64,000 bases of DNA, taken from positions 930,001-994,000 of the forward strand of contig NZ_JALPRP010000001.1 of the NCBI RefSeq assembly GCF_023195915.1. Direction: 5' to 3'. The notes beneath the pieces are model-generated. The model was not told the DNA's origin. It did not search any database and worked only from the letters and a program-made list of their open reading frames with translations. Of the stretch, positions 30,794 to 37,257 are shown piece after piece. This DNA comes from Methanoculleus sp. 7T (lineage in GTDB: Archaea > Halobacteriota > Methanomicrobia > Methanomicrobiales > Methanoculleaceae). How positions within the stretch are numbered: the stretch's first letter is position 1; the number at the start of each line of letters is the position of its first letter. Made by a program: the position numbers and the translations under genes.

Positions 30794-31123
30794 ATGAGAT
30801 CTGTTATAACCGTCCAGAGCGAAAACATAACGACCGAATCCGGGGGTATTACCATCTCAGATACAGCGCAATTCATCGTATATACACTAGAATTCTGCCC
30901 GAATTGCGAAATTCTCAAAGAGTTCCTGGCCTCCAAGGGCGTCTCCTTTGTCGAGTGCGACATGGCGTCCGCCGAGGCGCTGACGGAACTCCGCATGAAC
31001 GGCATATTCGTCCAGGAAGCGCCGGTGCTGCAGAAGAGCGACGCATTCTATACGTCCGGCGACCTCTTTGCCGGCGGCGCGTTCCAGGAAGACCTTGTCG
31101 CCGACCTGATCGCGGAGGCATGA
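30794..31123 (+). CDS. NrdH-like glutaredoxin of anaerobic ribonucleotide reductase
   Basis: About 109 residues with C35-PN-C38 in LEFCPNCEILKEFLASKG and a glutaredoxin fold reading on to ELRMNGIFVQEAPVLQ with its cis-proline. It overlaps nrdD by four bases (ATGA). In Methanosarcina a similar glutaredoxin next to NrdD serves as its disulfide reductant. The N-terminus is uncertain: an upstream in-frame start at 30662 is open but of poor composition, and the ATG at 30794 lacks a clear ribosome-binding site. Confidence 0.8.
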   Translation: MRSVITVQSENITTESGGITISDTAQFIVYTLEFCPNCEILKEFLASKGVSFVECDMASAEALTELRMNGIFVQEAPVLQKSDAFYTSGDLFAGGAFQEDLVADLIAEA

Positions 31124-34100
31124 GGTTGACGCGCAAGTCGACGCAGACGACCATCTTCGGGGATTTCATCCCCACCTTCCCGAAAGTCCGGACCTCGCGG
31201 GGCTACCTCCTCGACTGGGATAGGAACAGGATCGTCAGGCAGATCATAGAAGAGAGCCGCCTCGTCGAGGTCTTCTACGGCTACGAAGGGGCCGACGAGG
31301 AGACGGCACAGGATATCGCCCGGCGGGTCGAGAAGAAGATCCAGATGCTCGGGCTGCAGTCGCTCTCCGGTCCCCTGATCCGCGAGATCGTCAACATGAC
31401 GCTCCTTGAGCGCGGGCTTACGTCCTACCGCAACGTCTGCACGAGGGTCGGGACCCCGGTCTTTGATGCACACCTCATCGATGTCGGGCGGGGGTTCGAG
31501 GCGCACGACAACGCCAACCTCCAGGAGAACGCCGAGACGTCGCACAAGAAGAAGGCGGACAAGATCAGTAAGGAGCAGTACCTCCTGCAGCTCCCCCCGG
31601 ACCTTGCGGACCACCACCTCCGCGGCGACCTCCACATCCATGACCTGGAATACTTTGGTACGCGCCCGTTTTGCATCGACGGGAACACAGCCATACCGGT
31701 ACGGACGGGCAACCGCATCCGGAGCATCCTTCCTGCCGAACTCATGTTCCCCGGTGACGAATGGCGCCCTGAAGACCTCTCCGCGCTCACACCGCAGGGC
31801 TGGAGGCGGGTCGGCAAGGTGACCCGCCGGAGGGTGAAACCAGGCGAGATGCTCCGGGTCCGGACGTCGAGCGGACAGTCGCTCTCGGTCACCGGGGAGC
31901 ACCGGATTCCGGTTCGCACCGGAGACGGTATGGCCGTTCGCCGTGCCGACGAGGTGCGCGCCGGGGACGTCCTCTACAGGATCCCGAGGACCGACGCCAT
32001 CCGCGGAGAGACCATAGAGGCGATCGATCTCATCAGGGAACTGCCTGCATCGGTGCCGGCCGACCTCCTCGAGAACGTCTATGTCCGCGGTGCCGAAGAG
32101 ATATTCGTCGAAACGGTGCGGACCGGGCGGGCCGCCACGTACACGGAGATCTCCCGGACGCTCGGGGTCGAGCACCGGCAGCAGTGGTACACCCGCGGGA
32201 TCATGCCGATTGCTCTCTTTGCAGCCTTCTCTCGCCGCTATGGCGTCGAAGACTACAGCCGGGTCACCGTCGGGGTCACCGGGAGCGAACACGAACTGCC
32301 TGCGGTTCTCACGCTCACGCCGGAACTCATCCGCCTTCTCGGGTTCTTCGTCGCCGAAGGCAACTACAACGTCTCGTTAGAGGCCGGGCAGTACAACCTG
32401 GCGATCACCGAGAACGCCCAGGCACCCGCGATCCAGACGGCGGCATGCACCAGCCTGAACACCTTCGCAACACTCGCCGGAGGCACCCCCGACACCGCCA
32501 CCATTTACGGGGTCGAGGTGGAACGTAACCGGGCCCTGCAGGTCTACTTCGGCGGAAAACTCGCCTACCTGCTCTTCCGCTACGTCTTCGGCATTCCCGA
32601 GGGAGCGGCCGGAAAACGCCTCCCCTGGATAGTCTATCATCTCGACGACGTGCTCCTCCACGAGTTCCTCTCCGCCCTCTTCACCGGGGACGGCTCAGCC
32701 TATTATCGCCCCGAGAAGTCGGACTGCATCGTCAACTACACCTCCGTCTCCCCGGCGCTCCGGCAGGAACTCTCGCTCCTGCTCACCGCGCTCGGGATGT
32801 CGCCCCACATCGTCGAACTCTACGGCGAGGAAGAGCGGCGGACGCTCTATAGGCTCCAACTCAACGGGCGCAAGAACATAGAGACGTTCGCCCGGTACGC
32901 CACGTTCCTTGACCGGAGGCAGGACCATATCGACGGTTTCCTCTCCGCAGTCAAGGAGGGGCGAGGCCGGGAGCGGGAGGAGACCGTCGTCGAGGTCTCC
33001 CCGACGGAGCCCACCGGCGAGTACGTCTACGACTTCTTCCTCACCGGCGACGGGACCGAGGAGAGCCATACGTTCTATGCCTCCGACGGCCTGCTCATCC
33101 ACAACTGTCAGGATTGGGACCTGCGCTACTTCTTCTACTACGGCCTGATGCCCGACGGCAACGGGACGAAGGCCTCGGTCGCCGGCCCCGCAAAGCGGGC
33201 CGAGGTGGCGGTCCTCCACGCGGTCAAGGCGCTCGGCTCGGCCCAGACGAACTTCGCCGGCGGCCAGGGCTACTACAACTTCCTCACGTTCATGGCGCCC
33301 TTCTTCGAAGGGATGGACTACGGCGGGATCAAGCAGTTGATGCAGATGTTCGTCTACGAGATGACCCAGATGATGGTCGCCCGGGGCGGCCAGGTCGTCT
33401 TCTCGTCGGTCCAACTCTCTCCGGGGGTCCCCACGCTCTGGAAGGACAAGCCCTGCGTCTACCGCGGCAAGGTCTGGGACGGGAAGCAGGCGCCGCTCCG
33501 GACCTACGGCGAGTTCGAACGGGAGGTCAGGCTCCTCTTCAAGGCGCTGATGGAGGTCATGCTCGAGGGAGACTACTGGGGCAAGCCCTTCTCCTTCCCG
33601 AAACCAGAGATCAGCATCGAGCCCGACTTCCTCAACGAGAACGAGGAGTTCAACCGGGAGCACCCCGACCTCCCCACCTACCACGACCTCTACCTGATGA
33701 CCTTTGAACTGGCGTCAAAGTACGGCACCCCTTACTACGACAACCAGATCCCCCCGTACCGGGGCGCCGGAGAGGGAATCTCGTGCTACCAGTGCCTCGC
33801 GGGCGACGAACTGGTCCCGGTGGCCGACGAAGGCGGAAGGATCGCCGTCAGGACGATCAGGAGCCTCTTCGATGCCGCGGCAAAGAACGGGAGGCGGATC
33901 GACTCGTTCGGCACGGAACTCGCCTACTACGACGGCAAGGCCCCGAGCGTCGACTTCACGACTCTGGAGTCGTCTCTCCGCCCGTTCCATGGCGTGATGC
34001 GGCAGCGGTACACCGGGGACCTCCTCCGGATCACCCTCGAGTCGGGCCGGCGGATCACCGTCACGCACGACCACCCGGTCTACACCCTCAACGGGGGAAG

Positions 34101-36141
34101 GTTTGTTCGGGAGACGGCGGGAGACCTCGAGGTCGGCGACTACCTCCCGGTGCTAAAGACGGGCGGGTTCTGCGAGAGGCAGGTTGCGGAGATCGACGTT
34201 GCAGAGGCTCTTAAAATGGCCGGCTACGCCGACGAGATCCGCGCCTGCGAAGACGGGGTGAAACTCAGGAGCGCAAGGCGCCCCGGCCTGCCCCGCACCC
34301 TCACGGTCGACCGGGACCTCGCAAAGTTCCTCGGCTACTACCTTGCGGCCGGGTCTCGCGACCACAGCGGTCGGCGGTATACGGTCGGGCTCTCGTTTGA
34401 GAAGCGCGAGGCGGACCTTGCGGCCGACGCCGCCGCATGCATCCGCGCCGCACTCGGGTACGAGCCGGAGGTCCGCGAGTCGGCGGCGGGAACCGTCGTC
34501 GTCGTCAAGAGCAAACTCGTCTACCTCCTGGTCGACGCCCTCGGGTGCGGCTCTTCCGCCGCCGATAAAACGGTCCCCGACCTCCTCTTCAACCTCGACC
34601 GCACCCTGGTCGGCGACTACCTCGGCGCGGCCTTCCGGGCCACCGAGGAGAGATCATCAGGGCGCCGTGCCCGGAGCATCAGGCTGAAGGCGGCCTCACG
34701 GGATGCCGTCCAGAAACTGGTCTGGCTGGCGGGGGAGATCGGCGTCCAGATGGGCTATGTCGAACGGGAGGAGACGGTCCGGGGATCCGGGTGCGAGACC
34801 AAGACCTACGTCTGCAGGATCACGGCTCAGGACCAGATCGACCGGTTCCACGCGGAGACCGGATACTCTGCGGATGTGCCCGTCGGGAGGCAGACCGGCA
34901 GCGCTTTCACACACCTTCCGGAGAGCGGGCACGCCCTCGGATACGCCGGCCTCGCCTGCGCCGGCAGGTACAGCGCCGGCGGGATCGAGGGGATCCAGGT
35001 ATCGCTGGTCCTCCCCTCCGCCACCCGCGCGGCCGATATCGAGCGGCTCGCCCGTGGGGACGTCCACCCGCTCCGCATCCGCTCGATAGAGCCGGTGACC
35101 TGCGACGGCTACGTCTACGACCTCGTCGACGTCGACGGCACCCACACCTTCTCAAACGCCCTCGGCATCGTGACCGGGAACTGTTGCGCCTACCAGTTCT
35201 CCTCGCTCGCCAACGAGGACGCCGACTTCGAGGACAAACTCTACTTCAGGGAGGGGAAGCACTTCTCGATGGGCTCGTGGCAGGTGATGTCCATCAACTG
35301 CCCGCGGGCGGCGTACAAGGCGGAAGGCAACCAGGAACGGCTCTTCGCGGAGTTGAAGGCGCTCATGGACACCGCCGTCGAACTCTACCGGATCAAGCGC
35401 CGGTGGATGTCGCTGATCCGGGCAAACGGGCGGATGCCGTTTGCGATGCAGCGCCCGAAGGACCCGAACACCGGCGAGCGCGGTGCGGTTGCCGTGGACC
35501 TCGAAGGGCTCGTTTACACCATCGGCGTGGTCGGCGTCAACGAGATGGTCCAGCACTTCACCGGCCATCAACTCCACGAGTCAAGAGACGCGTTCCGTCT
35601 CGCCGTCCGGGCCATGACCGAACTTGAGATGTACGCCCGCGAACTCTCGGCGAAGTACAACATGACGATCGCCCTTGCCCGCACCCCGGCCGAGACGACC
35701 GGCCAGCGGTTCGCGGTCGCCGACCTCCTCGACGAGCGGTTCCGGGAGCACGCGCTCAAGGTCGTCAAGGGGAATGTGGAGAACGCGCTCGATATGCTCG
35801 GCACGACGCTCGACCTCCCCATCTACTACACCAACGGGACCCACATCACCCCGGCGGCCCCGGTCCCGCTCACGAAGCGGATCGAGATCGAGCACGTCTT
35901 CTTCCCGATCGTGGACGGAGGGAACATCTTCCACATCTGGCTCGGTGAGGCTCGTCCGGACCCCCGTGGTTTGATGGAGATGGCGATGAACCTCTGCCGG
36001 ACCACTCAGATCGGCTACTTCGCCTTCACCCGCGACCTGACGGTCTCCCTCAAGGAGTTCCGGGAACTCAGGCCGAGACACGAGGAGCCCGGCGGGAAGG
36101 CGGCCGGGACGGCCCCGGCGGCGGACCGGGCGGATGCCTGA
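31120..36141 (+). CDS. nrdD: Anaerobic (class III) ribonucleotide reductase with two inteins
   Basis: 1673 residues as translated, 732 after removal of two inteins. Extein regions carry HDLEYFGTRPF...CQDWDLRYFFYYGLMPDG, GGQGYYNFLTFMAPFFEG, VFSSVQLSPGVPTLW, GISCYQ...CCAYQFSS and a terminal NLCRTTQIGYFAFTRDL. The enzyme reduces ribonucleoside triphosphates without oxygen. After TRDL the chain continues SLKEFRELRPRHEE and stops; the usual zinc-binding cysteines and the RVTGY glycyl-radical motif are not seen here, nor in the 85 bases downstream. No NrdG activase gene is in the window. The start overlaps the glutaredoxin stop. Confidence 0.9.
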   Translation: MRLTRKSTQTTIFGDFIPTFPKVRTSRGYLLDWDRNRIVRQIIEESRLVEVFYGYEGADEETAQDIARRVEKKIQMLGLQSLSGPLIREIVNMTLLERGLTSYRNVCTRVGTPVFDAHLIDVGRGFEAHDNANLQENAETSHKKKADKISKEQYLLQLPPDLADHHLRGDLHIHDLEYFGTRPFCIDGNTAIPVRTGNRIRSILPAELMFPGDEWRPEDLSALTPQGWRRVGKVTRRRVKPGEMLRVRTSSGQSLSVTGEHRIPVRTGDGMAVRRADEVRAGDVLYRIPRTDAIRGETIEAIDLIRELPASVPADLLENVYVRGAEEIFVETVRTGRAATYTEISRTLGVEHRQQWYTRGIMPIALFAAFSRRYGVEDYSRVTVGVTGSEHELPAVLTLTPELIRLLGFFVAEGNYNVSLEAGQYNLAITENAQAPAIQTAACTSLNTFATLAGGTPDTATIYGVEVERNRALQVYFGGKLAYLLFRYVFGIPEGAAGKRLPWIVYHLDDVLLHEFLSALFTGDGSAYYRPEKSDCIVNYTSVSPALRQELSLLLTALGMSPHIVELYGEEERRTLYRLQLNGRKNIETFARYATFLDRRQDHIDGFLSAVKEGRGREREETVVEVSPTEPTGEYVYDFFLTGDGTEESHTFYASDGLLIHNCQDWDLRYFFYYGLMPDGNGTKASVAGPAKRAEVAVLHAVKALGSAQTNFAGGQGYYNFLTFMAPFFEGMDYGGIKQLMQMFVYEMTQMMVARGGQVVFSSVQLSPGVPTLWKDKPCVYRGKVWDGKQAPLRTYGEFEREVRLLFKALMEVMLEGDYWGKPFSFPKPEISIEPDFLNENEEFNREHPDLPTYHDLYLMTFELASKYGTPYYDNQIPPYRGAGEGISCYQCLAGDELVPVADEGGRIAVRTIRSLFDAAAKNGRRIDSFGTELAYYDGKAPSVDFTTLESSLRPFHGVMRQRYTGDLLRITLESGRRITVTHDHPVYTLNGGRFVRETAGDLEVGDYLPVLKTGGFCERQVAEIDVAEALKMAGYADEIRACEDGVKLRSARRPGLPRTLTVDRDLAKFLGYYLAAGSRDHSGRRYTVGLSFEKREADLAADAAACIRAALGYEPEVRESAAGTVVVVKSKLVYLLVDALGCGSSAADKTVPDLLFNLDRTLVGDYLGAAFRATEERSSGRRARSIRLKAASRDAVQKLVWLAGEIGVQMGYVEREETVRGSGCETKTYVCRITAQDQIDRFHAETGYSADVPVGRQTGSAFTHLPESGHALGYAGLACAGRYSAGGIEGIQVSLVLPSATRAADIERLARGDVHPLRIRSIEPVTCDGYVYDLVDVDGTHTFSNALGIVTGNCCAYQFSSLANEDADFEDKLYFREGKHFSMGSWQVMSINCPRAAYKAEGNQERLFAELKALMDTAVELYRIKRRWMSLIRANGRMPFAMQRPKDPNTGERGAVAVDLEGLVYTIGVVGVNEMVQHFTGHQLHESRDAFRLAVRAMTELEMYARELSAKYNMTIALARTPAETTGQRFAVADLLDERFREHALKVVKGNVENALDMLGTTLDLPIYYTNGTHITPAAPVPLTKRIEIEHVFFPIVDGGNIFHIWLGEARPDPRGLMEMAMNLCRTTQIGYFAFTRDLTVSLKEFRELRPRHEEPGGKAAGTAPAADRADA
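31672..33105 (+). mobile_element. Intein 1 of NrdD, with intact-looking LAGLIDADG endonuclease
   Basis: 478 residues (185-662). It begins with Cys in TRPF/CIDGNTAIPVR and ends YASDGLLIHN/CQDW, with a penultimate His. Block B is VTGEHRIPVR and block F is YDFFLTGDGTEESHTFYA. Two dodecapeptide motifs, LLGFFVAEGNYN (about residue 407) and SALFTGDGSAYY (about 520), keep their acidic residues, so the homing endonuclease could still cut. Confidence 0.92.
33793..35181 (+). mobile_element. Intein 2 of NrdD, with degenerate endonuclease motifs
   Basis: 463 residues (892-1354). It begins ISCYQ/CLAGDELVPV and ends ALGIVTGN/CCAYQF, where Gly replaces the usual penultimate His. Block B is VTHDHPVYT and block F YVYDLVDVDGTHTFSN. 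The dodecapeptide motifs read LGYYLAAGSRD and YLGAAFRATEE, so both catalytic acids appear lost. Splicing residues Cys1, the block B His and the final Asn are present. Confidence 0.9.
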
Positions 36142-36225
36142 CCGCAATCATACCTTTTTTGACCCTGCAGGGAGATTCTGATAGGAGCCGCCTGCCGAAG
36201 GGCTGCGGCGGCGTGCGAGGCATCC

Positions 36226-37257
36226 ATGATCGATCTGACGACTCCGCTTCTTGCCATCGACGTCGGGAGGGGCACTCAGGACATCCTAGTCTACCAGCCC
36301 GGCCGACCGATTGAGAACAGCATCAAACTGGTCCTCCCCTCCCCAACCGTGGTGGTGGCGGAGAAGGTCAGGCAGGCAACCAGAGCCGGGCTCCCGGTCT
36401 TCCTCGACGGGTTCCTGATGGGCGGCGGCGCGAACACCGGCGCGCTACGGGAGCACCTGGCCCGAGGCCTCCCCGTCTACGCCACGCCCGGGGCCGCCGG
36501 GACCATCCACGACGATATCGAGAAGGTGCGCTCGATGGGCGTGGAGATCCGGGCCGCCGCTCCGGAGGACGCGGTGACCATCCATACCACCGATTACATG
36601 GAGCCCGAGCTCCGGAAGGCGCTCGCCCTCTTCGGTGTTGAATACCCCGAGAACGTCGCGGTCGCGGTCCAGGACCACGGCTACTCACCGCACCGGAGCA
36701 ACCGTATCCGCCGGTTCGAACTCATGCGCGACCAGTTGGACGCCGGAGACTGGGACCTCCTCTCGCTCGTTGCGGACCCCCCGCTCCACGATATGACGAG
36801 GATGCAGGCGGTGCGGCGGCAGGCGCCGGGAGCCCTCGTCACCGATACCGGGCCGGTCGCGCTCATCGGGGCCCTCTGCGACCCGTGGGTGCGGCAGCGG
36901 GCGAGGGAAGGGATCATCCTCGTCAACGTCGGGAACGGCCACACGCTCTGCTTCACCTTGAAAGGAAGGGAGATCTACGGGCTCTTCGAGCACCACACCG
37001 GCGCGCTCGACCCCGCAAAACTGCAGCATTATATCTGGAAACTCGCCGACGGCACGCTGACGTCGGAAGAGGTCTTCGACGACGGCGGCCACGGGGCGGC
37101 GGTCAGGAAACCGCTCGTCACCGATACGGTGGTCGTCACCGGCCCAAACAGGCTCAGGCTGATGCCGGAGGCCTACCAGGCGGCGCCCTTCGGGGATATG
37201 ATGCTCTCGGGGTGCTTCGGGCTCATGCACCTCTGGAAACAGCTCAGGGAGCGGTGA
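36226..37257 (+). CDS. DUF1786 family protein (actin/hexokinase-like)
   Basis: 343 residues. The N-terminal LLAIDVGRGTQDILVY resembles the phosphate-1 loop of the actin/hexokinase ATPase fold, and VNVGNGHTLCF with GLFEHHTGAL forms the second half, as in archaeal DUF1786 proteins. The biochemical role is not established. It is a single gene 84 bases after nrdD. Confidence 0.85.
   Translation: MIDLTTPLLAIDVGRGTQDILVYQPGRPIENSIKLVLPSPTVVVAEKVRQATRAGLPVFLDGFLMGGGANTGALREHLARGLPVYATPGAAGTIHDDIEKVRSMGVEIRAAAPEDAVTIHTTDYMEPELRKALALFGVEYPENVAVAVQDHGYSPHRSNRIRRFELMRDQLDAGDWDLLSLVADPPLHDMTRMQAVRRQAPGALVTDTGPVALIGALCDPWVRQRAREGIILVNVGNGHTLCFTLKGREIYGLFEHHTGALDPAKLQHYIWKLADGTLTSEEVFDDGGHGAAVRKPLVTDTVVVTGPNRLRLMPEAYQAAPFGDMMLSGCFGLMHLWKQLRER

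Follow-up and report, generated by a model that had tools for sequence, protein, structure and literature searches.

Class III ribonucleotide reductases, oxygen-sensitive enzymes that supply the precursors of DNA, are described, in the literature that we searched, as a single catalytic chain (NrdD) that bears its own glycyl radical. In the NrdD of P. copri (PDB 8p23) the core comprises residues 123-671 and the radical domain, residues 676-739 with the radical on Gly711, is mobile as a rigid body (PMC11226230). For the NrdD3 type a QCCR/A finger loop has been described, and within class II the NrdJa/NrdJb reductases carry the C-terminal zinc finger on a chain apart from the catalytic one (PMC9669993). 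Split nrdD genes are also known from phages, with breaks that have neighbouring pieces and are either ascribed to introns, inteins or homing endonucleases or left unexplained; the excerpted text of that source (PMC3653736) describes none of them as a conserved split at a domain border with an autonomous radical-domain gene. Free-standing glycyl-radical domains are known for pyruvate formate-lyase, where YfiD/GrcA of E. coli and Y06I of phage T4 were the sole validated cases at the time of writing and others were thought possible (PMC8683613).

The window analyzed here is a stretch of 64,000 nucleotides from Methanoculleus sp. 7T. It includes an nrdD gene whose start shares the bases ATGA with the stop of the preceding nrdH-like redoxin gene, as read directly from the sequence (Table 1). 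The nrdD product is a precursor of 1673 aa that yields an extein of 732 aa after removal of two inteins, each lying at one of the protein's two conserved cysteines. The second interrupts the finger loop that carries the predicted thiyl-radical cysteine; after intein removal the loop reads YQCCAY and is identical across the body and fused relatives listed. The large chain encoded here comprises the complete catalytic barrel with its QCCA finger loop. The two inteins are absent from the first-pass annotation, and relatives of the same genus have zero, one or two, as judged by the length of the open reading frame. The gene 3' of nrdD belongs to DUF1786, for which Pfam gives the description of a putative activating enzyme of pyruvate formate-lyase.

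Table 1 Features of the split class III reductase in the window, elsewhere in its genome (G000) and in two virus records
Feature	Location	Strand	Basis or remark
nrdH-like redoxin, CPNC	30794..31123	+	Glutaredoxin PF00462, E 5.5e-5; NrdH/Grx NCBIfam matches
nrdD body, class III ribonucleotide reductase catalytic subunit, without glycyl-radical domain	31120..36141	+	PF13597, E 2.7e-122, and TIGR02487, E 5.4e-129, both above cut-off
Extein 1, barrel start and weak ATP-cone match	31120..31671	+	PF03477, E 0.0015, under its cut-off
Intein 1, LAGLIDADG domain, inserted before the conserved Cys of GTRPF/CQDWDL	31672..33105	+	Intein_splicing PF14890 (two stretches), LAGLIDADG_3, TIGR01443/01445
Extein 2	33106..33792	+
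Intein 2, inside finger loop YQ/CCAY	33793..35181	+	TIGR01445, PF14890
Extein 3, barrel end	35182..36138	+
DUF1786 gene	36226-37257
Tail gene, 120 aa, glycyl-radical domain	G000:C1:1320113-1320475	minus	PF13597 503-562, E 6.7e-15
NrdG2 activase	G000:C2:390547-390996		TIGR02495, above cut-off
Tail-nrdH-nrdD body run, virus records	L223:9327-12073; L226:9487-12007

The first-pass annotation had noticed that this NrdD appears to lack the zinc-binding and glycyl-radical C-terminus and had offered, among its explanations, that the radical domain is encoded elsewhere or that the gene is shortened; the observation and both explanations are borne out. The match to PF13597 falls into three stretches, the last of which stops at position 510 of 562. 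The frame closes with GYFAFTRDLTVSLKEFRELRPRHEEPGGKAAGTAPAADRADA at 36141, and neither CxxC nor RxTGY is found between this stop and the next gene at 36226. The C-terminus reads GYFAFTRDLTVSLKEFRELRP, followed by a Gly/Ala-rich stretch. The alignment to fused NrdD stops after GYFAFTRDLTVSL, at about 36055, which we take as the fission point, and the variable tail beyond it is without cysteine. Aligned by phmmer to the P. copri NrdD, the body stops at chain index 676 of 743, an index that matches the published numbering (PMC11226230) if the P. copri chain has four extra N-terminal residues; the fission point thus coincides with the border between core and radical domain of a protein that is itself one chain. 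Intact bodies of the same order likewise stop at profile positions 510-518, with C-termini such as ..TRDLTVCLKQFREYHP or ..TRDLTVSLHQF, so that neither chance nor a frameshift confined to this gene accounts for the ending. Some bodies retain the first zinc cysteine (DLTVCL) as a vestige. Compared with fused NrdD, the body is shortened by a cut at the border between barrel and radical domain.

The PF13597 profile search places the radical domain in a separate gene, 354 kb from that of the body. This 120-aa frame, the kind of small CxxC...RxxGY protein that had been suggested as a search target, is the one NRDD match above cut-off in the genome besides nrdD. The tail reads MKWSPEQQ..YKCHTCHFVVDETPCPHCG..MCPLDHCDCHH..YCPLCGHAVCPECGSHDVVQISRVTGYLQDVAGWNAGKQQELKDRVRYSVV and ends in CPLCG..CPECGSHDVVQISRVTGYL. 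Cys71, 74, 79 and 82 and the residues R92-V-T-G-Y96 are invariant among 41 aligned relatives, as is the motif that they form across 75 aligned sequences. The small chain is a free-standing glycyl-radical domain, with its predicted zinc site at Cys71/74/79/82 and the predicted radical on Gly95 of RVTGY. All of its glycyl-radical matches are to NrdD/NRDD families, its remaining matches are weak ones to zinc-ribbon models, and no resemblance to a radical domain of the pyruvate formate-lyase type was found among its Pfam and NCBIfam matches. The tail region aligns to positions 697-737 of the P. copri chain, and an additional zinc-ribbon-like region forms the N-terminus. The AlphaFold2 model of the tail alone is of low confidence (mean pLDDT 64.6), with 70-82 in the zinc-ribbon region and 33-48 in the glycyl loop and C-terminus. 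Purifying selection on the tail is strong, with a median dN/dS of 0.15, and of 0.08 in the radical half (residues 69-120).

Across the order the tail gene is flanked by pyrF-like and cbiZ-like genes, named from reading of the sequence, and this arrangement matches in 20 of the 20 loci compared. It overlaps the cbiZ-like (cobinamide salvage) gene; class II reductases require cobalamin. No conserved gene context was found in the neighbourhood of tails in other families. A desulfoferrodoxin-like neighbour, again read from sequence, was given no weight, as it lies near one tail only and is not common to the others.

The distribution of the two halves was surveyed in genomes of the Methanomicrobiales, an order of methanogenic archaea, with relatives from Methanoculleus, Methanoregula, Methanospirillum, Methanomicrobium and Methanolinea. 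A profile built from 14 tails found the stand-alone tail in 88 of 99 genomes with a completeness of 90% or more. The other 11 are ten genomes of genus g17 and G086, in which the body is present and no tail was found. An NRDD search of 100 genomes of the order found neither body nor tail in twelve, all of genus g17. Across the order the separate frames match NRDD from about position 503 to 562, and bodies are conserved at about 80% identity with an open reading frame. The split of NrdD holds throughout the Methanomicrobiales; one genome (G001) encodes an extra NrdD, full-length at 569 aa. Most sister-order genomes have the radical domain fused to the barrel, in frames of about 760-820 aa. These NrdD3-type chains have the same catalytic chain, mostly at 62-72% identity to the window body, which they match to about its residue 703-706, and an NrdH-like redoxin upstream; past the end of the body they run on into SRVTGYLQ.VSGWNA.K.QELKDR. 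The split form differs from them in having the radical domain on a chain of its own, which brings a first CxxC pair and the added zinc-ribbon-like region.

We interpret the pair, with a probability of roughly 90%, as a two-chain class III (NrdD3-type) ribonucleotide reductase in which NrdG2 makes the radical on the small chain and the small chain docks in the barrel of the large one. Since the tail and body genes are widely separated in those genomes of the order that we examined, their linkage comes from viruses only. In two large IMG/VR records (127,665 and 135,061 bases) the tail, an nrdH-like redoxin and the body follow one another, near thymidylate synthase. Tail and redoxin are separated by a 27-base gap in one record and overlap by 4 bases in the other, and the bodies end in GYFAFTRDITISKNEYRWRRS and GYFAFTKDFTVCNNAYRKY. 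This order suggests that the three proteins form one enzyme, and the gene run is the best evidence for it. Eight further virus records (L213-L220) have a tail frame of 109-157 aa; no NrdD body was found within these records, which may be fragments. In several of them the tail adjoins terminase, baseplate or replication genes, and terminase, portal, head or baseplate genes mark several as tailed viruses. Further virus records carry fused NrdD.

We infer that the two chains form a complex, that the radical forms on the small chain and that electrons reach the active site by way of the redoxin. The small chain would dock into the barrel of the large chain, and NrdG2 would abstract hydrogen from Gly95, probably while the small chain is docked there. 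The radical would then pass from Gly95 to the finger-loop cysteine of QCCA, with electrons supplied by NrdH. The activase is encoded in the genome of the window, on a contig other than that of body and tail; a search for nrdG had been proposed in the first-pass annotation, as had one for another reductase, and a class II enzyme was indeed found. Its extra N-terminal zinc-ribbon-like region, together with a first CxxC pair of its own, would allow the small chain to stand alone. By analogy with YfiD, whose N-terminus helps binding (PMC8683613), these two features may also aid docking.

One alternative is that the tail is a spare part like YfiD/GrcA, which only repairs NrdD cut by oxygen and is not a regular radical subunit. 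Stand-alone tails do occur beside fused full-length NrdD in some sister families, namely f8 (L101, L102, L106, L109) and f24 (L103, L104), and tails in virus records without a detectable body recall T4 Y06I and E. coli YfiD, which serve pyruvate formate-lyase (PMC8683613). In the Methanomicrobiales, however, the bodies are without a radical domain, so there is no intact NrdD of the same type to repair and the radical glycine can come from the tail alone. For this order we consider the spare-part reading improbable, although it may fit other archaea and the tail-only viruses. One further tail copy, L105 (in G172), has a disrupted C-terminus. In a tree of 43-residue radical domains the Methanomicrobiales tails are compatible with a single origin (support 76/75, not starred); the columns are too few to resolve whether the stand-alone tails of other families share it. 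The tails beside intact NrdD in f8 and f24 point to a possible path, in which a spare part came first and later replaced the built-in domain of the Methanomicrobiales.

A second alternative, which we regard as less probable still, is that the body represents an NrdD that has decayed or been put to another use, that class II does all the work and that the tail has another role. The genome of the window, like most of the order, does encode a class II reductase, and may therefore be able to do without class III. Yet the frame of the body is open and conserved across the order, its QCCA finger loop is intact, and the tail is strongly constrained. A PF02867 search found no class I or II reductase in eight genomes of the order; the six of these with at least 90% completeness (G018, G047, G059, G077, G087 and G097) have both NrdD halves. 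Thus the split pair very probably works where it is the sole reductase, a conclusion to be read with the draft state of the assemblies. Furthermore, the genus that lost class III is missing both halves together, and all twelve of its genomes without NrdD have class II. An assembly or frameshift artefact, conceivable given that the genome of the window is a draft in 46 contigs, has a negligible chance of explaining the split, since it recurs with distant halves in the single-contig genomes G004, G034 and G040.

The two-chain reductase of the Methanomicrobiales thus has likenesses to several described systems. With YfiD/GrcA and T4 Y06I it shares a small free-standing glycyl-radical-domain protein that is also virus-borne, but those proteins belong to pyruvate formate-lyase, whereas the tail belongs to NrdD and has zinc cysteines. 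YfiD/GrcA replace a damaged domain, the tail of this order one that is missing from the large chain; a partner enzyme with its own damageable radical domain is present in some sister families but not in this order. NrdJa/NrdJb has the same division into two chains but is of class II, with a cobalamin radical and no glycyl radical. A separate NrdD radical domain is not described in the literature searched, though an earlier description elsewhere is possible; as far as that literature shows, the two-chain form is new among class III reductases. In practice, it is misleading to annotate the bodies as complete proteins and the tails as fragments.

With middling confidence, we also propose a portable radical subunit that would be the sole one in the Methanomicrobiales, a spare beside intact NrdD in some other archaea and, when virus-borne, a means of loading host NrdD in trans during infection. 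An extension of the spare-part idea to NrdD is plausible. A two-chain form natural to a whole order would bring this idea, proved at the time of PMC8683613 for pyruvate formate-lyase only, into DNA precursor synthesis, and would account for the carriage of an apparently orphan fragment of 110-157 aa by viruses. It would also mean that a small exchangeable protein is the place where the radical is installed, swapped or renewed, and docking, activation and catalysis would become experimentally separable.
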